A stretch of DNA of 54,331 nt from a virus: positions 1 through 54,331 of IMG/VR virus record IMGVR_UViG_3300048928_000352. The stretch is one strand, 5' to 3'. Under the pieces are notes generated by a model, which ran no database searches, was not told where the DNA came from, and worked only from the letters and a program-made list of their open reading frames with translations. Shown piece after piece: positions 11,338-54,331 of this stretch; within the stretch, counting starts at the first letter, position 1, and every line of letters starts with the position of its first letter. Both the position numbers and the translations under genes were made by a program.

Positions 11338-12063
11338 TCACTCTGGTAGAAAAGCTCCGACTACTTTTCCGCATATATGAGTCTCCTCCGTAATATCAAT
11401 GATTGGATATTGCGGATTGATAGGCCTTAAATACTGACGACCCGCATCTTCCACTAAAATTTTGAATGTGGCTTCATTGGTGCGTGGGACTCTGGCTATT
11501 ACACGATCACCAGTTTTCGTTTCAGCCTCAGGATCAACAAAAATAATGCAACCTGTGGGGTAACTGCGACCTGGTCCAGGATTCGTCATTGAGTCCCCCA
11601 AAACTTTCAATGCATAACCACTTCTGCTAATTGGAACAGGACAAGATAGCCAGGACTCGCCATCGTGCTGCTCAAAGTTTGCCTCGCACCACGCACCAGC
11701 TTGCACCCATGAAATCAATGGCACCTTTCCAAATCGGTCAGTTACCTCACGGATGTTAGTCTCATCCGATAAACCTATTCGGTGGACGTTACTTTCTCCT
11801 GTTTGCTCTTTGGGCAGCACGCCATATTCCAGCCACTCCCGCCTGACCTTCAGCCATGAGCAGAGCACAGCCATGCTGTCAGCCTCTGGTATAGAGTCGC
11901 CATTCAGCCACTTGCTGATCGCTTGAGTGCTTTTCTCAGCCCCAACCTTCACTAAATGCGCGTGAATATCCACACCCCGTCCCCGGGTGCGTACACCGGC
12001 ATCGTTGAGTGCTTCGTGAAGGCGCGCCGTGAAAGCCGCCCGTAGTTCGTTCTTATCAACCAT
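11338..12063 (-). CDS. cI: CI-type repressor with S24 (LexA-like) self-cleaving domain
   Basis: 241 residues. An N-terminal HTH (about 15-70, ending STQAISKWLNGDSIPEADSM) is followed by a LexA-type peptidase: cleavage site VQAGAW (Ala-Gly, about residue 125), Ser in LGDSMTNP and Lys in EATFKILV. It keeps the prophage silent and should be cut when RecA is active, linking induction to DNA damage. An operator (12055-12071) covers its own start codon and a second lies 40 bp upstream, so it is probably autoregulated. Its direction is opposite to the Cro-like gene, as in lambda. Confidence 0.92.
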   Translation of the reverse strand: MVDKNELRAAFTARLHEALNDAGVRTRGRGVDIHAHLVKVGAEKSTQAISKWLNGDSIPEADSMAVLCSWLKVRREWLEYGVLPKEQTGESNVHRIGLSDETNIREVTDRFGKVPLISWVQAGAWCEANFEQHDGESWLSCPVPISRSGYALKVLGDSMTNPGPGRSYPTGCIIFVDPEAETKTGDRVIARVPRTNEATFKILVEDAGRQYLRPINPQYPIIDITEETHICGKVVGAFLPE

Positions 12064-40800: not shown

Positions 40801-41226
40801 ATGAGCTTCACCATTTTAGGTCCTATCGCTGAGGCAGGCGCGAAGCTGCCTATGTGTTCGTTCCAGGTACCGGCCGGCTTTCCTTCGCCGGCAGCGGATC
40901 ATATCGAGCAGCACATCTCATTGGATGAGGTCCTGAATATCCGCGCACCGCATGTGTACCTGGTAGCCATCACCGGGGAAAGCATGCAAGGGATTGGTAT
41001 TTTTGAAGGCGATCTCGCGGTGGTGGATCGTGCCATTGAGCCGGCTCACGGGCATGTGGTGGTGGCTCTGCTGAACAATGAACCCGTCTGCAAGCGCCTA
41101 TGTAAGCGCGGCCGGGAGGTGATCCTTTTATCAGAGAACCCCAAATACCCGGCGCGTTATGTGCTTGAAGGCGATGAGCTCTCAATCTGGGGTGTGATCA
41201 CCAGCACAGTGCGCAGCCATGTCTAA
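40801..41226 (+). CDS. umuD: UmuD-like self-cleaving polymerase V subunit
   Basis: 141 residues. The self-cleavage site lies in [12 protein letters not shown] (Ala-Gly, about residue 25), the active Ser in [11 protein letters not shown] and Lys in EPVCKRLC. After RecA-driven cutting, UmuD' joins UmuC as the error-prone DNA polymerase V. The stop overlaps the umuC start by 8 bp. LexA box upstream. Confidence 0.94.
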
Positions 41227-42496
41227 GCAAGAACCGACCTTTGCACTGATCGACTGCAACAGCTTTTATGCCAGTTGCGAGCGGGTGTTCCGGCCGGACC
41301 TGGCGAAGGTGCCCATCGTGGTGCTGAGCAACAACGACGGCTGTGTCATCGCGCGCAGTTACGACGCGAAGCCGTTCATCAAGATGGGCGAGCCGTATTT
41401 TCAGATCAAACACAAGCTCAAGCAACACGGCATTGTGCCGTTCTCCTCCAACTATGCGCTGTACGGCGACATAAGCGAACGCGTGATGAGCCTGATCGAG
41501 TCACTGGTGCCGGCAGTTGAGGTTTACAGCATTGATGAGGCCTTCGCCGATATGACCGGTGTCGGTGGTTTGGATGCCTTAGGCCGGCAAATCCGCGCCC
41601 AGGTACTTCGCTGCACCGGCATACCTGTTGGTGTGGGCATAGCTCATACAAAGACCCTGGCGAAGCTGGCAAACCACACCGCGAAGCGCCTGCAATCGCA
41701 GACCGGTGGTGTGGTCAATATCACCGACCCAGTTAAGCGGGACTGGGTGCTGCGTAATACGAACGTGGCGGAGGTGTGGGGCGTTGGCAGAAAGATGAAA
41801 CTTCACCTCGATACGATGGGTATAAAGTCTGCAATGGACTTGGCTAAGGCGGACCCGTGGACGCTTCGCAAGAAGTTCAGTGTTGTGATCGAGAAGACGG
41901 CCAGGGAGCTGGGCGGCACGCCTTGCTTGGAGCTGGACGAGCCGGATCCGCCAAAGCAGGAGATCTGCTGCAGTCGGATGTTCGGCCAGCGGCTGACGGA
42001 GCTGCCGCCTATCAAAGAGGCGGTGGCCACCTACATGATGCGAGCTTCTGAGAAGCTTCGCGGCCAGAACTCGCTGTGCAAGAAGGTGCGCGTGAGCATC
42101 CGTACCGGCATGTTCAATCCGGAAGAGGCGAAATACGCCAATGGTGTGGTGGTAGATATGCCTTACCCCACTGACGACGTTCGCCTGCTAACCCAGGCGG
42201 CGGTAGGGGCGCTTGATCGTATATTTCGACCAGGCTTCAAATACAGCAAGGCCGAGGTGATGCTGATCGACCTGTGCCAGCCTGGCGAGTACACGGACGA
42301 TCTGTTCGCGGTGTCTCAGCCAGCCGAGGCCACCAGATTGATGACCGTGCTGGACCAGATCAATGACAGGTGGGGAAGGGGAACGCTGCGGTCGGCCAGT
42401 GTGCCGACGAAGCCAGTCTGGGGGATGCGCCGGGAGATGATGAGCCAGAGCTACACCACGAAGCTCGATCAGCTTTGGTCGGTAGCCTGCAAGTAG
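41219..42496 (+). CDS. umuC: UmuC-like error-prone DNA polymerase V
   Basis: 425 residues, Y-family polymerase. [18 protein letters not shown] (first catalytic Asp), [14 protein letters not shown] and [13 protein letters not shown] (second acidic pair) are complete, and the little-finger domain continues to the end with the usual MWxV-like [14 protein letters not shown]. It copies past DNA lesions with many errors. Together with umuD under LexA control, it gives the lysogen a second SOS mutator, notable beside the altered mutS. Confidence 0.95.
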
Positions 42497-45628: not shown

Positions 45629-45640
45629 ATCGGGGTGTGG
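45629..45640. other. attR core (right prophage junction, orphan mutS start)
   Basis: Second copy of ATCGGGGTGTGG. Read on the minus strand from an ATG at about 45656, codons give MTDLSSHTP, the N-terminus usual for Pseudomonas MutS, preceded by an SD-like AGGAAGAG. After the core the frame runs only eight more codons (IVLEYFGR) to a stop in prophage DNA. This is read as the native mutS 5' end cut off by integration. Confidence 0.75.
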
Positions 45641-45889: not shown

Positions 45890-46060
45890 TCAGGCTCGTT
45901 TTGCCTCAGCTGCCATCAATACAAGGTTCTGCTGTTTGGTCGCTTCGGTCAGCACTTCGCTGTATACGCGCTTTTTTTGATCAGATTTAGCGTTACGAAT
46001 AAAGTCGGCAAAGGGGCTTTTTGCACCTTTGGTCAAGCCCAGCTTGATCGAAATCATCAT
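45890..46060 (-). CDS. Small protein partnered with zeta-like kinase
   Basis: 56 residues (MMISIKLGLTKGAKSPFADF ... LMAAEAKRA), basic, helical. Its ATG overlaps the stop of the zeta-like gene (TAATG) and an SD (AGGAG) lies within the end of that gene. The tight coupling suggests an antitoxin or accessory factor, although classic epsilon antitoxins are encoded upstream and are longer. Role inferred only from position. Confidence 0.65.
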   Translation of the reverse strand: MMISIKLGLTKGAKSPFADFIRNAKSDQKKRVYSEVLTEATKQQNLVLMAAEAKRA

Positions 46061-46827
46061 TACGCTCCTGATGGTTGCCCGAGTCTGGCCTCAAGATCGG
46101 CCCGCGTGTGTCGCTCAGGAATATGGTAGTCAATTTTTTCGACACCGGCTTTGTACAATCGTCCCGAGTTGTCAATGTGCTTGAGCAGCAAATCCACGTG
46201 GATATCGCCGCCGTACTCTAGCTTAAGTGCGTTGACGACGTCACGTGCGGCAAAGTACTGGTCGATGAAATGCTCTTTACGAATCCTTCTTCCTTCTGAT
46301 TCTTCGCGAGCTTTGACGAAGTCCCAAGCGAGCATCGGATCCTGGTAGACGTACAGAATCTGTACGAACCTGCCTTTTCTTAAGGAACGATCCACATTCC
46401 GCCTGGCAACATCAATGTTTGAAAATGTTCCGTCAAGGAGGAACGACTGCTGTTGGTCCATCGCAAAATCCAGAATCTTCTCCACCAAAATAGAAACCCC
46501 TTTCTGGAATAACCAGGAGTTACCGCCGGTATAGGCAACAAATTCGCTACGAAGCTCATCGGGGTCAATTCGAAGGATCGGGGTGTCGGCAAAAAGATTC
46601 ACGAGCGCGATTGATGCCTCGGTTTTTCCTGCACCCGGTGAGCCGGCCATGTAGACCGATACAGGCGCCTCTTCCGGAGGATAGATAGCTTTGTCGGTCA
46701 GACGCCTGGCAATCATTTTCTTGTTTGAGCGAGCAAAGCGCAGCGCTTCGTCTGAGACTTCCTGCTCTGAGTGCGTCATGACTTTTCTGATTGGATCTGC
46801 AAAGTGCGTCATCAACAAACCCAGCAT
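46060..46827 (-). CDS. Zeta-toxin family kinase
   Basis: 255 residues. Walker A VYMAGSPGAGKTEASIAL (about residues 58-75), the DPDELRSEF segment with the substrate-side Asp (about 93), and SFLLDGTFSN (about 128) match PF06414 zeta toxins, which phosphorylate UDP-N-acetylglucosamine or related substrates and stop wall synthesis. An in-frame ATG 15 bp later (MTHFADP) may be the true start. It lies outside the prophage junction, between it and the tailocin repressor, and diverges from the latter. Confidence 0.85.
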   Translation of the reverse strand: MLGLLMTHFADPIRKVMTHSEQEVSDEALRFARSNKKMIARRLTDKAIYPPEEAPVSVYMAGSPGAGKTEASIALVNLFADTPILRIDPDELRSEFVAYTGGNSWLFQKGVSILVEKILDFAMDQQQSFLLDGTFSNIDVARRNVDRSLRKGRFVQILYVYQDPMLAWDFVKAREESEGRRIRKEHFIDQYFAARDVVNALKLEYGGDIHVDLLLKHIDNSGRLYKAGVEKIDYHIPERHTRADLEARLGQPSGA

Positions 46828-46892: not shown

Positions 46893-46918
46893 AATGCATT
46901 AAATATGCAAATTAGCAT
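46893..46918. promoter_or_regulatory. Candidate tailocin repressor site upstream of its own gene
   Basis: AATGCATT (46893-46900) and ATGC-AAATTA-GCAT (46905-46918) resemble the ATGCAT palindromes of 47757-47827. Position fits autoregulation, and control of the divergent zeta gene. Confidence 0.5.
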
Positions 46919-46954: not shown

Positions 46955-47669
46955 ATGCAAAAACGCAACGTTTCTATCGTCTTAAGAGAGCTGCTGGACC
47001 GCGACCGGATCTCCCCCACGGAGCTTCACCGGCGTACCGGCGTGCCTCAATCCACGTTGTCCCGGATCCTCAGCGGCAAGATCGTCGATCCGTCGGACAA
47101 GCACATCTCACGCATTGCCGATTACTTTCAGGTCAGCACCGATCAGTTGCGCGGGCGCGCAGGGCTGGTGCCGGCGCGGTCGGACGAGCGTGACCCGATG
47201 CATTCGGAACTCAAGGACATAAGCCTGTGGGACGACGACACGCCCGTTAATGATGACGAGGTGTCGATCCCCTTTCTGCGCGAGGTTGAATTGGCTGCTG
47301 GATCAGGAAGAGAAGGCCAGCCTGCGATTCGGCAAGCGCAGCCTGCGGCATAACGGTGTGCAGTTCGACCAGGCCAAGTGCGTCACGGTGCGTGGCAACA
47401 GTATGTTGCCGGTGCTGCGTGACGGCGCGACCGTCGGCGTCAACGCCGGCAAGTGCGGGATTGGTGACATCGTCGACGGCGACCTGTATGCCATCAACCA
47501 CAATGGCCAACTGCGGGTGAAACAGCTCTATCGCCTGCCTTCGGGGATTCGCCTGCGCAGCTTCAACCGCGATGAACACCCGGATGAGGACTACAGCTTC
47601 CAGGACATCCAGGATGAGCAGATCAGCATCCTCGGTCACGTCTTCTGGTGGGGCATGTACGCCCGCTAA
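46955..47669 (+). pseudogene. Tailocin repressor (PrtR/CI-type), frameshifted
   Basis: Two fragments in different frames make one LexA/CI-type repressor. Fragment 1 (46955-47353) has the HTH (TELHRRTGVPQSTLSRILSG, about 24-43) and reaches REVELAAGSG, which contains the Ala-Gly cleavage pair, then runs into unrelated residues and a stop. Fragment 2 takes over at about 47310 (EKASLRFGKRSL) and holds the peptidase Ser (VRGNSMLPV), the Lys (LRVKQLYRL) and ends GHVFWWGMYAR at 47669. The shift needs +1 or loss of a number of bases equal to 2 modulo 3; the hinge after the cleavage site also looks short, which suggests a small deletion. The protein made would lack dimerisation and self-cleavage. Confidence 0.85.
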
Positions 47670-47756
47670 CCCCTCTTCGTAAGACAAAGCCCGCCAATGA
47701 GCGGGCTTTTTTTCGTCCGTGCAAAACCACCAAACCCTTTGCCCATAAGGCTGCGA

Positions 47757-47770
47757 ATGCATCCATGCAT
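47757..47770. promoter_or_regulatory. Tailocin operator A
   Basis: ATGCAT-CC-ATGCAT, upstream of the tailocin promoter. Confidence 0.6.
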
Positions 47771-47787: not shown

Positions 47788-47803
47788 AATGCATTTGTGC
47801 ATT
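47788..47803. promoter_or_regulatory. Tailocin operator B
   Basis: AATGCA-TTTG-TGCATT, ending at the -35 of the promoter. Confidence 0.6.
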
Positions 47804-47830
47804 GACTGTATATGCATACATGCATATTCT
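47802..47830 (+). promoter_or_regulatory. Tailocin late promoter
   Basis: TTGACT, 17 bp, TATTCT, with operator C filling the spacer. It is directed toward the leader and holin. Confidence 0.65.
47810..47827. promoter_or_regulatory. Tailocin operator C
   Basis: ATATGCAT-AC-ATGCATAT, a perfect palindrome lying between the -35 and -10. Confidence 0.7.
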
Positions 47831-48265
47831 TCATCTCAAGCCAGCCAAGAAGGCCTGGTGGAGGCGGCAAGGATGCTGCCAAGGAAGACAAGGACGTTAC
47901 GCAACACCGGCAAGGACGCCATCGAAGCGATGGCACGGATGCCAGGCAACACCGGCAAGGATGCCGACGCTCTTTAGTTTCAAACCGCTTCAAGAACAGG
48001 CAGCGATGAACCGGCCTTAACGGTTCAGAGGGTTGGCAACTGGCCCGGGTGTGCAGCGTAAAGCACCAGAAGCAGTTATCCGGCAGACAGGGATCGTGGT
48101 CGGAAAAACATTGAGGAAAGAACCGTACCGCGCCAGTAGCGCCGAAAGTTCGAGGACAGCATTACTGAAAAGCCCGGGCAACCGGGCTTTTTGGAATGCC
48201 TACCTATAAATGGAATTACCCAAAACCCGGCACTGCGCCGGTAATGCTCAGCCAGGAGGCGTGAC
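47831..48265 (+). other. Tailocin leader region
   Basis: About 430 bp with no supported gene. A 20-bp direct repeat (GCAACACCGGCAAGGACGCC at 47901-47920, one mismatch at 47946-47965, 45 bp apart) lies near the 5' end and a terminator at 48168-48192. Length and layout suggest an antitermination leader. Confidence 0.5.
48168..48192 (+). terminator. Terminator ahead of tailocin holin
   Basis: AAAAGCCCGG / CCGGGCTTTT stem with a GCAA loop and T-run, 74 bp before the holin start; it parallels the terminator before the prophage holin. Confidence 0.8.
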
Positions 48266-48604
48266 ATGACAAACGAGCAGCAAGCGTTAGCGGAAATGCC
48301 TATCTGGTTAGTGATCGCACTGGCCCTGATCGGCGGTGTCTCCGGAGAAATGTGGCGCGCCGACAAGGAGGGCGCCCGCGGTTGGTCGCTGGTGCGGCGC
48401 CTGGCCCTGCGTTCCGGGGCCTGCATGGTGTGCGGGGTGTCAGCCCTGATGCTGTGCTACGCCGCCGGCATGTCGATCTGGACGGCCGGCGCCATTGGTT
48501 GCCTGACCGCCATGGCCGGTGCCGACGTGGCCATCGGCCTTTATGAACGCTGGGCAGCCAAGCGCATCGGCGTCAACGAAGGCCCCGGCCGGGACCCGCA
48601 GTAA
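48266..48604 (+). CDS. Holin (tailocin copy)
   Basis: 112 residues, two hydrophobic stretches (PIWLVIALALIGGVSGEMW at 12-30 and the region 55-100). Homologous from end to end to the prophage holin at 16561 (MTNEQQAL.. at the start and CLTAMAGADVAIGLYERWAA at the end are shared). SD AGGAGG precedes it. It lets the tailocin endolysin reach the wall so that particles are released by lysis. Confidence 0.88.
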   Translation: MTNEQQALAEMPIWLVIALALIGGVSGEMWRADKEGARGWSLVRRLALRSGACMVCGVSALMLCYAAGMSIWTAGAIGCLTAMAGADVAIGLYERWAAKRIGVNEGPGRDPQ

Positions 48605-48626: not shown

Positions 48627-49142
48627 ATGACACTCATCGAAAAACCTTCCCAACTGCCCCAGGCCATCAACGAGGCGTTGCGCGTTGCCTTTCCTAATCT
48701 GAAGGTCGGCAATCATCAGGACTTCCAGGGCACAACGGATAACACCGGCGTGTTGATCACGGTCGAAGGTAATGGCCCCGGCATTCGCTCCCGCGAAGGG
48801 CGCAAGGCCCACGCCCTGGGGATTTCACTCAAGGCTATGGTTGCCCCAGGTGCCTTGCCCTTTGATGCCTGCGACCTGGCCAGCCAACTGATGGACCTGG
48901 TGCTGGATAACCGCTGGAACCTGCCGCAGGAGCAGTGCGACCTGCCGAGCAATATCGTCGCTGCGCCCTCAATAGGCACCACCGCAGAAACGGACTACGA
49001 CACCTGGACCGTCAGCTTCACCCAAACCCTCTATATCGGACCGCCGCTGCTCAACGATCCCACAGGCCAACCGCTGTTCGCCTGCACCTGGGAAGTCTCG
49101 AACATCGACGACCCCGACCAATACAAGCCGCTGGCGGAGTAG
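48627..49142 (+). CDS. Tail terminator-like protein of tailocin
   Basis: 171 residues, mixed alpha/beta, FTQTLYIGPPLLNDPTG near the C-terminus. It lies between the holin and baseplate V, as does the counterpart at 24932 in the prophage, with which it shares the YDTWTVSFTQTLYIG motif. Likely caps the tube. Function inferred. Confidence 0.6.
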   Translation: MTLIEKPSQLPQAINEALRVAFPNLKVGNHQDFQGTTDNTGVLITVEGNGPGIRSREGRKAHALGISLKAMVAPGALPFDACDLASQLMDLVLDNRWNLPQEQCDLPSNIVAAPSIGTTAETDYDTWTVSFTQTLYIGPPLLNDPTGQPLFACTWEVSNIDDPDQYKPLAE

Positions 49143-49145
49143 CCC

Positions 49146-49754
49146 ATGTTCGACGCGCTGTTACGCATGCAACTGGGGCCGATTGTCGAGCGACTGGCGG
49201 AAATGGAAAACCAGCTCGAAGACCTGTATCGACGCGCTGAAAGTTTCTGCCGCATCGGCGTGTGCCAGGAGGTCGACGCCGCCAGCAATACCTGCAAGGT
49301 CAGCCACGGCGAACTGCTCACCCCGGCCATTCGCTTTTTCAACCCCAGCGCCGGTGCGCAGACGGAAACCCGCATCCCGTCCGTGGGCGAGCAATGCTTG
49401 CTGCTCAACTACGGCGGCGGGGAGGGCGGGGCGCAATCGGTGGCCTTGTTCGGCTTGAACAGCGACCGGTTTCCGCCGGTCTCCAGCGTTCCGTCACTGA
49501 CCCGGCGCCGCCATCAAGACGGCACCCAAAGCGACTACGACGACGCCAGCCATACCTTCAACTGGATCAACGGCCCGACCACGTTCACCGGTTCCCGCGA
49601 ACAGGTCGACGTCAAGGTCGGCGCCGCCGGCCTGACGATGAATGCCCAGAGCATCACGCTGCAAGTCGGTGGTACCCGTCTGTTGCTGGATGCCGGCGGC
49701 GCGCACTTCAGCGGCCCGGTGGTGGATCACCAAGGCCGAGTCATCAGCCCCTGA
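49146..49754 (+). CDS. Baseplate assembly protein V of tailocin
   Basis: 202 residues. LLRMQLGPIVERLAEMENQL, then a gpV OB-fold (RIPSVGEQCLLLNYGGGEGG, VALFGLNSDRFPP) and a short beta-helical end. Unlike the prophage copy it does not end in H-x-H but in HQGRVISP, so the metal tip seems absent or supplied by another protein. Confidence 0.88.
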   Translation: MFDALLRMQLGPIVERLAEMENQLEDLYRRAESFCRIGVCQEVDAASNTCKVSHGELLTPAIRFFNPSAGAQTETRIPSVGEQCLLLNYGGGEGGAQSVALFGLNSDRFPPVSSVPSLTRRRHQDGTQSDYDDASHTFNWINGPTTFTGSREQVDVKVGAAGLTMNAQSITLQVGGTRLLLDAGGAHFSGPVVDHQGRVISP

Positions 49755-49766
49755 TAAGGACATCCC

Positions 49767-50099
49767 ATGATCGGAATCGATCGGAACACCGGGGCGGCCG
49801 TCGATGACTGGCTGCAATTCGTCCAGCGCGCCACCCGAGCGCTGACCACTCCCTTGGGCACTCGCCAGAAGCGCCCGCTGTACGGCTCGATGATCCCGCA
49901 ACTGCTCGGGCAAAACCTCGGCGATGACCTGCTGATTCTCGCCCAGAGCCATGCCGCCCAGGCGTTCTACAACCCGCAGAACGGCATCGCCGATTTCGAA
50001 CCGCAAGTCATCGTCGCCAACCGTCAGGGCGCCGGCCTGTTGCTGCGCTTCGCCGGCACCTGGAAAAACCGCAAACAAACCTTCGAGGTGGTGACATGA
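49767..50099 (+). CDS. Baseplate protein W of tailocin
   Basis: 110 residues, MIGIDRNTGAAVDDWLQFVQ and TTPLGTRQKRPLYGSMIPQL signature of gp25-like wedge proteins. Overlaps gpJ by 4 bp. Confidence 0.92.
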   Translation: MIGIDRNTGAAVDDWLQFVQRATRALTTPLGTRQKRPLYGSMIPQLLGQNLGDDLLILAQSHAAQAFYNPQNGIADFEPQVIVANRQGAGLLLRFAGTWKNRKQTFEVVT

Positions 50100-51091
50100 G
50101 CATGCTGATACCCGGCCAGAATCAGTTGGCTGAGCCAGCGATCATTGCCGTCGATGAATTCGAGCCACTGTTGGCGGAGTTCAAGGCGTTTGTCGTTGAT
50201 TACGTCGCGACTCGTGCGCCGGAAAATGCCGCCAAGCTCAAGGTCAGCCTGGAGAACGAAAGCGAGCTGCTGACGTTGGCGCTGGAAGCTTTTTGCGTTC
50301 GCCTGCAAACCCACGAGCGTAAATACAACGCCCGCATCAAGCAGATGCTGGCGTGGTGGGCCACCGGCAGTAACCTTGACGCACGCCTTGCCGACATGGG
50401 CCTGGAGCGTCAAGTGCTCGACCCTGGTGACCCGGCGGCTTTCCCGCCCGTGCCGCCGACGTTGGAGAGCGACGACGACGCCCGCCTGCGTTATTACCTG
50501 GCGCCACACGCACCCGCAGCAGGCTCGCGGATGCAGTATCGCCGGGAGGTTTTCACCCTCGGTGAGCGTCCATCGGTGAAAGTGCAAAGTGCTACGCCGG
50601 GTGTGGTGACGGTCACTTATACCTTCGACCCGGACGGCTACGCGGCGCGGGTCAAGGATGGCAACGGCCGTCGCACCGCGCCTGGCGAAGTGATGGTCAC
50701 CGTCCTGTCCCGAGACGGGGATGGCACACCCTCTGAGGATCTACTCGAGGGTGTACGCCGGCATTTCGCCCGGCCTGATGTACGACCGGAAACGGATCTC
50801 GTCTCGGTGCAGGGCGCACAAATCCTGCGTTACAAAATCCGCGTGGTGGCAAAGATCAACGCCGGCCCGGACTCCGGGCTCACTCAAGTCGCCGCCCAGA
50901 AACTGCTGCAAGACTATGCAGAGTCTTGCCATCGCCTGGAAGGGCGGGTGGACCCGAGCTGGATCGACTACGCCATCCACTCGGCGGGCGCTGCGCAACT
51001 GCAAATTCTTGAGCCGCTGGAGCCGATCGTCACCACGGCATTCCAGGCCCCGTATTGCACGGGTGTCGAGGTGGAGGTGCGCACCCTATGA
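50096..51091 (+). CDS. Baseplate protein J of tailocin
   Basis: 331 residues; PAIIAVDEFEPLLAEFKAFV and LRYYLAPHAPAAGSRMQYRR are typical gpJ parts, as is the end EPIVTTAFQAPYCTGVEVEV. It is longer than the prophage gpJ by 36 residues and clearly divergent from it. Overlaps gpI by 4 bp. Confidence 0.92.
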   Translation: MSMLIPGQNQLAEPAIIAVDEFEPLLAEFKAFVVDYVATRAPENAAKLKVSLENESELLTLALEAFCVRLQTHERKYNARIKQMLAWWATGSNLDARLADMGLERQVLDPGDPAAFPPVPPTLESDDDARLRYYLAPHAPAAGSRMQYRREVFTLGERPSVKVQSATPGVVTVTYTFDPDGYAARVKDGNGRRTAPGEVMVTVLSRDGDGTPSEDLLEGVRRHFARPDVRPETDLVSVQGAQILRYKIRVVAKINAGPDSGLTQVAAQKLLQDYAESCHRLEGRVDPSWIDYAIHSAGAAQLQILEPLEPIVTTAFQAPYCTGVEVEVRTL

Positions 51092-51816
51092 ACGAACCAA
51101 AAGGCAGCTTGCTGCCCGCCAACAGTTCGCCGTTGGAGAAGGCACTGGACCTGGGGTTCGGGCAGTTGCTCGACCGGGTCACACCACCTTTTCCCGCCTT
51201 GATGAACCCGCTGCAAACCCCGGTTGAATTCCTTCCCTACCTGGCCGCTGATCGCGGCGTCAGTGAATGGGATGCCGCTGCCAGCGAGTCGGAGAAGCGC
51301 CTCACTGTGGCCTTGTCGTGGCAGATCCAGCGTCAGGCCGGTACGCCCAAGGCGCTGAGCTACGCGGTTGAGTCACTGGGATTCACCCCCAACATCAGCG
51401 CCTGGTATCAACAGCGGCCAACCGGTCTGCCTTACACCTTTGATGTGCAGGCAATCATCGGTCGCAGTTGGTCCAGTGGCGATCACAACCGTTTGATCCG
51501 CCGCATCAACGCGGCCAAGAGCGAGCGGGACCTGGCCACCATCACCATCGTGCACGAGACCTCCCAGGGTTTACGTGTCGCTGCAACCGCTGATCCAGGA
51601 TTGAGCATCGGCGATGAGAGCCAGCCCGGGGCATTACCCGAGGTGAAGCTTCACGGGGTACTTGCTTGTAGCAGCGTGGCGCACACACCGCTCAGCGATG
51701 GCGAGTTGGAGCTGTGCGGCGTACTGCCTGAACTCGGGCTGGCGGCCCGGCTTAACAGTGCCGGGGTTGCCCGGCACTACACCATTAACGACTACGACCT
51801 CAGGGCGCAGCCATGA
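51088..51816 (+). CDS. Tail protein I of tailocin
   Basis: 242 residues from the ATG at 51088, four bases inside the gpJ end. LLPANSSPLEKALDLGFGQL and ...LPYLAADRGVSEWDAAASES follow the gpI pattern. The C-terminal 60 residues are repetitive (LPEVKLHGVLACSSV and GELELCGVLPELG). Overlaps the fibre gene by 4 bp. Confidence 0.9.
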   Translation: MNEPKGSLLPANSSPLEKALDLGFGQLLDRVTPPFPALMNPLQTPVEFLPYLAADRGVSEWDAAASESEKRLTVALSWQIQRQAGTPKALSYAVESLGFTPNISAWYQQRPTGLPYTFDVQAIIGRSWSSGDHNRLIRRINAAKSERDLATITIVHETSQGLRVAATADPGLSIGDESQPGALPEVKLHGVLACSSVAHTPLSDGELELCGVLPELGLAARLNSAGVARHYTINDYDLRAQP

Positions 51817-52346
51817 CAGATGAAATTACACGCCTGGTGCGCTTCACCTCCAAGGGATTGGATGAAGTGCTGCAGGCAAAGAACCAGGGCTTGAAAGGCG
51901 AGATCACCCACATTGGCGCCGGTACTGGCCGCTACAACCCCGACGGCACCGAAGTTGCCCTGCGTGACGAGCGTCAACGGGTCGCCATTGTGGACTACGA
52001 GGACTTGGGCGACCGACAACTCAGGATGGCCGCGCTGTTTGATGGCGAGGCTGAGTATGAGATTGGCGAGTTCGGTTTTTATCTCGCCAGTGGCACGTTG
52101 TTGGCGGTGTATTCCGTTGCAGGAAAGTTGCTGACGTATAAAGCGGCGGCGGCTCGGGTGCTGCAGAAGTTCACGTTGGATATTTCGCCGTTGCCGGCGG
52201 ACAGCGTCACTATAGTTGTGGGGAGTGACAACCTAAATATTTTGTTGGGGGAGGATATTGCAGTACTTGCGACAGCGAATATTGACAACATGGCTCGTCA
52301 TACTGAATTGCTGTTTCGTGTGATGTCACTGGAATCAGGCCGATAA
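51813..52346 (+). CDS. Tail fibre, attachment part
   Basis: 177 residues. ITRLVRFTSKGLDEVLQAKN and YEIGEFGFYLASGTLLAVYS form the baseplate-attachment domain of gpH-like fibres. The protein stops where a shaft and receptor domain normally continue; those appear to be on the next gene (52374). The 3' part is AT-rich. Either a natural two-piece fibre or a fibre that lost its middle. Confidence 0.8.
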   Translation: MTDEITRLVRFTSKGLDEVLQAKNQGLKGEITHIGAGTGRYNPDGTEVALRDERQRVAIVDYEDLGDRQLRMAALFDGEAEYEIGEFGFYLASGTLLAVYSVAGKLLTYKAAAARVLQKFTLDISPLPADSVTIVVGSDNLNILLGEDIAVLATANIDNMARHTELLFRVMSLESGR

Positions 52347-52373: not shown

Positions 52374-52994
52374 GTGAGTCTAGAAACGACTATTACATCG
52401 CTAGTGACGGCGGCGAATAATTTGACCACCGCCGTCAATGGAAAAATCGGTAGTATCAATGCGACGATGGCCGGTGCGTTGGCGCAGTTTAATGAGTGGC
52501 GTAGCCTAAAGGATGTGGAGGGGGATCCGAACTATCCTGGGACCATTCGCAGCACCATTCTTCAGGGCCATGTTTACGGCACCGGTGGTGTCTACGAGGC
52601 GCAGTCGATAGGTGATTTCGTGTCTACGGACTTGGGGTCGAGCGTCAATGTCTATATGCATTTCAAAATTCCATTGAACCTCAACATCAACTCAGAAATG
52701 TTCTGGTTCAATATCAAAGGTTACAGCTACGGCACGGCGAAAATTATCGATGAAACGTTAGTTGGGTATTGCTATCAACCGAACCGAACACTGCACAATG
52801 CCTCAACCTTCGGCAATATGACACCTGCTGTCTACGTTGATGCTAATGGCAATATTGTGATGCGGATTTTGATACCCAATATTTATTACACCACGGTCCG
52901 TATTGACACTATGCGAGTGGGTAATGGCCGTCTGTTTAATTTGGGTGATATTAAGACCAAGGTTTCGCTGGCTGATACCGTGGTTTTTAGTTAA
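52374..52994 (+). CDS. Probable receptor-binding fibre part of tailocin
   Basis: 206 residues. A helical N-terminus (LETTITSLVTAANNLTTAVN) could trimerise and the rest is beta-rich (INATMAGALAQFNEWRSLKD, GDFVSTDLGSSVNVYMHFKI) without a known fold. It is AT-rich and lies exactly where host-specificity domains sit, before the chaperone. It starts 27 bp after the attachment part, with SD AAGGAG. Function inferred from position. Confidence 0.65.
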   Translation: MSLETTITSLVTAANNLTTAVNGKIGSINATMAGALAQFNEWRSLKDVEGDPNYPGTIRSTILQGHVYGTGGVYEAQSIGDFVSTDLGSSVNVYMHFKIPLNLNINSEMFWFNIKGYSYGTAKIIDETLVGYCYQPNRTLHNASTFGNMTPAVYVDANGNIVMRILIPNIYYTTVRIDTMRVGNGRLFNLGDIKTKVSLADTVVFS

Positions 52995-53523: not shown

Positions 53524-54331
53524 ATGGCTGAGGTTTTGAACTTCGAGCACAACGGCATCACCGTGAATGCCACCGAATCCCCCGAGGCCATGGGTGGCCT
53601 GGGCGACAACGTCATCGGCCTGGTGGGCACCGCCCCCAATGCCCATGCGTCGATCCCGAAAAACGCCCCGTTCCGCATCAACAGCTTCACCACCCAGGCG
53701 CTGCTGGACCCTACCGGCGCTGAAACCGGCACGCTGTTCCACGCCGTGTACCAGATCCTCAAAGTGGTCAAGGTGCCGGTCTACGTAGTGATCGTCGACG
53801 AGGGCACCACGCCGGCCGACACCCTCAATAACGTAATCGGCGGTGAAGAGCCGGTCACCGGCCGTAAACTGGGCCTCGCCGCCCTGGCCAGCGTCCCCGA
53901 AGACCTGACCATCATCGGCGCCCCGGGTTTCACCGGCACCAAAGCCGTGGCCGGCGAATTCGCCTCCTTCGGCAAGCGCATCAAGGCCCGTGTGGTGCTG
54001 GATGGCAAGGACGTAACCGTCGCCGACCAGGTGACCTACAGCGGCGAACTGGGCGGTGCCGACCTCGGTTTCGACCGCTGCCTGCTGGTGCACAACATGC
54101 CGTCGGTGTACTCCAAGGCTGCGAAGAAAAACGTGTTCCTGGCCCCGTCGTCCCTGGCCATCGCTGCACTGGCCAAGGTCAAGCAGTGGGAAAGCCCGGG
54201 CAATCAGGTGACCTTCGCCGAAGACGTTTCCCGCGTGGTTGAGTACAACATCCTCGACACCTCCACCGAAGGCGACCTGCTCAACCGTTACGGCGTGAGC
54301 TACTACGCCCGCACCATCCTCGGCGGTTTTT
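53524..54331 (+). CDS. Tail sheath protein of tailocin, 3' end outside window
   Basis: At least 269 residues, incomplete. AEVLNFEHNGITVNATESPE, VIGLVGTAPNAHASIPKNAP and DLTIIGAPGFTGTKAVAGEF match Pseudomonas R-type tailocin and Mu-like sheaths. Only weakly similar to the prophage sheath at 30589, so the two elements have separate tail origins. Confidence 0.93.
   Translation, partial: MAEVLNFEHNGITVNATESPEAMGGLGDNVIGLVGTAPNAHASIPKNAPFRINSFTTQALLDPTGAETGTLFHAVYQILKVVKVPVYVVIVDEGTTPADTLNNVIGGEEPVTGRKLGLAALASVPEDLTIIGAPGFTGTKAVAGEFASFGKRIKARVVLDGKDVTVADQVTYSGELGGADLGFDRCLLVHNMPSVYSKAAKKNVFLAPSSLAIAALAKVKQWESPGNQVTFAEDVSRVVEYNILDTSTEGDLLNRYGVSYYARTILGGF

Follow-up and report, generated by a model that had tools for sequence, protein, structure and literature searches.

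The stretch of DNA analyzed here (54,331 nt in its entirety, hereafter the window) ends in an R-tailocin cluster, situated at the mutS-tailocin locus of the Pseudomonas fluorescens group. Beside mutS, the genes for a PrtR-type repressor (prtR), a holin, baseplate proteins, a tail fiber, and a contractile sheath follow each other in order, all on the plus strand. Downstream of prtR lie the intact genes for the holin (Phage_holin_3_5, 48266–48604), a conserved tailocin protein of unknown function (phrog_1072, 48627–49142), a gpV-like baseplate spike (49146–49754), a gpW-like baseplate wedge (49767–50099), a baseplate J-like protein (50096–51091), and a Tail_P2_I-like protein (51088–51816, with its start inferred from relatives). 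The tail fiber gene (51813–52346) matches its relatives in length; the gene that comes after it (52374–52994) falls in a variable region. From holin to fiber, all seven open reading frames (ORFs) are full length and share 89–100% protein identity with the relatives L222 and L227. The contractile tail sheath gene (53524–54331) is intact up to the point where the record ends inside it, and the endolysin, the tape measure, and the rest of the cluster lie beyond that end. No capsid, portal, terminase, or integrase gene was found between 46955 and 54331, and the portal and terminase genes at 17–22 kb are those of a neighboring prophage.

This 43-kb prophage (2651–45640) is inserted within the 5' end of mutS and has a 12-bp repeat, ATCGGGGTGTGG, at its edges (2651–2662 and 45629–45640); in L003 and L006 the insertion site is empty. 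The prophage provides mutS with a new start and upstream region, and a mutS with a similarly supplied start lies nearby in 58 of the 75 loci with a related integrase, an element type that has been described before (PMC5296598). The same element that takes over the mutS start also carries umuD- and umuC-like error-prone repair genes (40801–42496). Between the prophage and prtR lies a zeta-toxin-like kinase gene (46060–46827), and this stretch of DNA also adjoins prtR in L003 and L006.

The prtR gene itself is split. Its frame starts at the ATG at 46955, opens with MQKRNVSIVL, and runs through REVELAAGSGR before it shifts and meets a stop codon at 47351–47353 (truncated frame 46955–47353, plus strand; MQKRNVSIVLRELLDRD...FLREVELAAGSGR, then out of the repressor frame). 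The resulting product would count 132 amino acids, namely 119 native residues followed by 13 foreign ones. It retains the N-terminal Cro/CI-type helix-turn-helix (HTH_3/HTH_26 at residues 10–65; PF13443 with E=3.5e-10 and PF01381 with E=3.2e-9) and, in the hinge, the conserved Ala115-Gly116 self-cleavage pair (47297–47302, plus strand), with the native part ending three residues past this pair. The remainder of the repressor (KASLRFGKRSL...MYAR) sits in another frame on the same strand (47313–47669, stop at 47667–47669) and comprises an intact S24 protease domain (PF00717, E=5.6e-17 on the enclosing ORF 47250–47669) with its residues Ser156 (47400–47402) and Lys196 (47520–47522). Ala115, Gly116, Ser156, and Lys196 are all invariant in an alignment of 13 diverse homologues. 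The Ser/Lys domain of a PrtR-type repressor is thus there in the DNA, but it is out of frame with the helix-turn-helix. Read in this way, the allele is a broken copy of a self-cleaving repressor of the PrtR type (LexA/CI-like, S24) and not a working member of that family. A single-sequence search of the Protein Data Bank with the repressor returned no match, and a profile search for solved relatives reached the HTH half only (lambda CI and P22 C2).

What breaks the frame is a clean deletion of 20 bp at 47311/47312 (plus strand) and not a one-base shift. Close homologues all encode about 244 residues, and the repressor region measures 712 nt in the window versus 732 nt in relatives; the identical 20-bp gap at 47312 appears against all six relatives that were aligned across the tailocin region. 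Since the deletion can be placed in three equivalent ways, its ends share a 2-nt GA microhomology. About seven residues past the Ala-Gly region are lost from the hinge. The original prediction, made from the letters of the window, had described a repressor broken just past its cleavage site, with a short hinge and a product reduced to its DNA-binding half, and all three of these points hold. The deletion does not reflect poor sequence quality overall: in the 5.4 kb compared with L222 the sole other gap is 1 nt long and lies in a noncoding A-run, and the seven tailocin ORFs are full length. In the sequence itself the deletion can be taken as real; its presence in living cells is possible, and so is its presence in the assembly only.

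Intact repressors are the rule among relatives, as the comparison with sister strains suggested in the original prediction makes clear. Among the first 160 loci fetched (viral contigs and species genomes), prtR is complete and uninterrupted in 159; the remaining one, L026, ends at a contig edge, yet it reads through the deletion site intact. L026 is at the same time the closest sister found (98.0% identity across 4,357 bases). In a broader draw of 299 Pseudomonas genomes, 205 gave a match at E <= 1e-40; among the matches listed for these 205, none has an internal stop. The 13 weakest of them were inspected again and are not broken prtR genes: each either matches at the C terminus and has another kind of N-terminal domain, or is a distant match over the full length. 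A second carrier of the deletion junction was not found in other viral contigs, nor did a search with a nearby 30-mer from the window find a near-identical record. Two near relatives, L230 (65% identity) and L231 (56% identity), encode a second full-length PrtR-like repressor elsewhere in the genome.

The event also appears to be young, as had been proposed. Compared with L083, the window shows 17 synonymous and 0 nonsynonymous codon differences across the stranded protease domain; compared with L002, the figures are 7 and 0. This half still has the appearance of a gene subject to selection, and such near-exclusively synonymous differences imply that the event is recent (or that the assembly is wrong here). 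Judged by these comparisons, the broken prtR is a loss-of-function allele private to this sequence, in a repressor family and system already known. As such it changes no general view. It does represent a natural truncation that parts the DNA-binding half of a tailocin repressor from its self-cleaving half.

The regulatory sites around the broken gene are retained. Four ATGC-N6-GCAT palindromes occur in the 54-kb window (1.8 expected), and all of them lie at prtR or the tailocin promoter: one 5' of prtR (ATGCAAATTAGCAT, 46905–46918) and three downstream of it (ATGCATCCATGCAT, 47757–47770; ATGCATTTGTGCAT, 47789–47802; ATGCATACATGCAT, 47812–47825). The latter group covers a putative tailocin promoter (TTGACT-17-TATTCT, 47802–47830, plus strand), of which one was found with 0.8 expected by chance and which is conserved in relatives. 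ATGCATTTGTGCAT abuts its -35 element, whereas ATGCATACATGCAT lies between -35 and -10 and overlaps the start of the -10 element. A terminator-like hairpin (47686–47709, plus strand) follows prtR. Homologous loci totaling 0.9 Mb contain 283 ATGC-N6-GCAT sites, 271 of them at prtR; across eight related whole genomes, a stricter form, ATGCATNNATGCAT, has most of its perfect matches at the prtR locus. Among the loci displayed, the positions relative to the start codon are nearly constant (-50, about +822, +853, and +876), with some strains being without a few of the sites. The four palindromes are probably PrtR operators. From their layout we infer, as the natural reading, that PrtR would directly repress both prtR and the tailocin promoter, without PrtN. 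Plant-associated Pseudomonas carry prtR but no prtN, and a 2023 review called their regulation unclear (PMC10598620); the presence of prtR without prtN makes direct repression plausible. The allele and the four conserved operator-like sites jointly offer a testable model of tailocin control in Pseudomonas without PrtN.

Cross-repression by the S24 repressor of the prophage (11338–12060) was considered as well and is not supported, as this protein and PrtR are not meaningfully similar. A leader of about 430 nt (47851–48265) with imperfect GGCAACACCGGCAAGGA-like repeats runs from the tailocin promoter to the holin gene. It differs by 0.7–1.7% from four close relatives, and nearly all flanking genes differ more. 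The leader has no Rfam match, and the Rfam and tRNA scans found nothing.

The closest described counterparts are the mutS-cinA tailocin loci of the P. fluorescens group (prophage 01 of Pf-5 and ssh6 of Q8r1-96; PMC2647930). They share the place beside mutS, the same repressor type, and the arrangement of prtR followed by the holin and tail genes. In the window, on the other hand, the repressor is truncated by the 20-bp deletion, and mutS and prtR are separated by the 43-kb prophage and the zeta-toxin gene. The PrtR of the Pseudomonas aeruginosa R/F pyocins is likewise a helix-turn-helix plus S24 self-cleaving repressor that is released through RecA (PMC8609362, PMC10598620). There, PrtR acts via the activator PrtN, whereas the operator layout described above points to the promoter being repressed directly. 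Lambda CI and LexA show the same build of an N-terminal helix-turn-helix domain, an Ala-Gly cleavage pair, and a Ser-Lys protease domain, and lambda also has several operator copies (putative ones in our case) across a promoter. Unlike in lambda CI and LexA, the two repressor halves no longer form one protein in the window.

We propose, with a probability of about 0.5, that the PrtR-type repressor was recently inactivated by the 20-bp deletion while the R-tailocin is otherwise intact, so that repression is lost or strongly weakened. Intact PrtR would bind the ATGC-N6-GCAT sites as a dimer joined through its C-terminal domain; one site would serve to repress prtR itself and the other three to repress the tailocin promoter. 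PrtR would be released when RecA-stimulated self-cleavage at Ala115-Gly116 parts the two halves. The truncated product is similar to the inactive fragment set free by SOS cleavage; the two are almost exactly the same, the truncated protein being the SOS-released N-terminal half plus 17 residues, and weak binding is thus to be expected. The tailocin would then be constitutively derepressed to some degree, DNA damage would no longer switch it properly, and the cell would pay a lysis cost. Owing to this cost, the allele probably does not last long, is buffered in part, or is offset by a change beyond the window. Critically speaking, full derepression of the holin gene should come at a very high price, and still the sequence exists. 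At high concentration, some DNA binding is retained by N-terminal pieces of LexA or lambda CI, and the loss of autorepression could raise the level of the fragment.

Two other explanations are equally unlikely. According to the first, the deletion is an assembly artifact, or it belongs to a minor variant within a mixed sample, and the repressor is intact in the cells themselves. Selection should act against a derepressed tailocin, no other occurrence of the junction was found, and the record is a contig of unstated quality from a virus collection. A clean loss of 20 bp is atypical of sequencing error, however; there are no coding indels elsewhere in the region, and the GA microhomology suits a real small deletion. 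According to the second, the allele is real but silent, the cell being protected by another PrtR-like repressor elsewhere or by a lesion in a lysis or structural gene outside the window. Two of eight near relatives, as noted above, encode a second full-length PrtR-like protein elsewhere in the genome (G001 at 56% and G035 at 65% identity), and the record stops inside the sheath gene, leaving room for such a lesion. The other six have no second copy, though, every visible tailocin gene is intact, and operators common to both repressors are an assumption only.

Less likely still is that the N-terminal half alone represses sufficiently, leaving the tailocin off and uninducible by SOS as nothing remains to be cleaved. 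The helix-turn-helix is intact, and three clustered sites combined with lost autorepression could offset weak dimerization. Self-cleaving repressors, however, work precisely because the same fragment is released in an inactive state, and the fragment here is only a few residues longer than the released one. The original prediction had left both outcomes standing, a tailocin that is leaky or fully on and one that is blocked with no SOS release possible, without choosing between these opposites. Because the fragment is so close to the SOS product and the operators and promoter are intact, loss of repression is to be favored over a permanent block.

With the deletion, a peculiar stretch of codons has lost its end. 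Among 155 distinct intact genes, codons 110–121 are the part of the gene that varies least synonymously (normalized entropy 0.11 versus a mean of 0.44), and none of 20,000 position shuffles reached an entropy as low. The rarest stretch by codon usage, codons 112–120, overlaps with it (GGA 5.6%, TCA 4.3%, and AGA 1.5% within their own amino acid). In the window this frozen rare-codon block occupies 47282–47311 (codons 110–119), whereas in intact relatives, where it codes for the cleavage site, it extends to codon 122. An RNA hairpin in the block is not supported, the structure being nothing unusual (z = 0.11), and neither is a role as a repeated recombination linker, with one copy per genome. 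That the block is a working nucleic-acid element (e.g., a pause or recoding site), from which the allele would yield some full-length repressor with a shortened hinge via +1 frameshifting, is very improbable; if true, the broken allele would be a poorly inducible switch rather than a dead one. Least probable of all is that low-level +1 frameshifting at the rare AGA codon by the junction (1.5% of Arg codons, with an AGGA-like stretch just 5' of it and an intact downstream half) would restore a full-length repressor with a short hinge, as there is no known slippery motif and a recent event accounts equally well for the intact downstream half. The same rare codons are found in most relatives at 82–84% identity but not in those at 75–78%; as a guess, the block might serve as a translation pause between the two domains.
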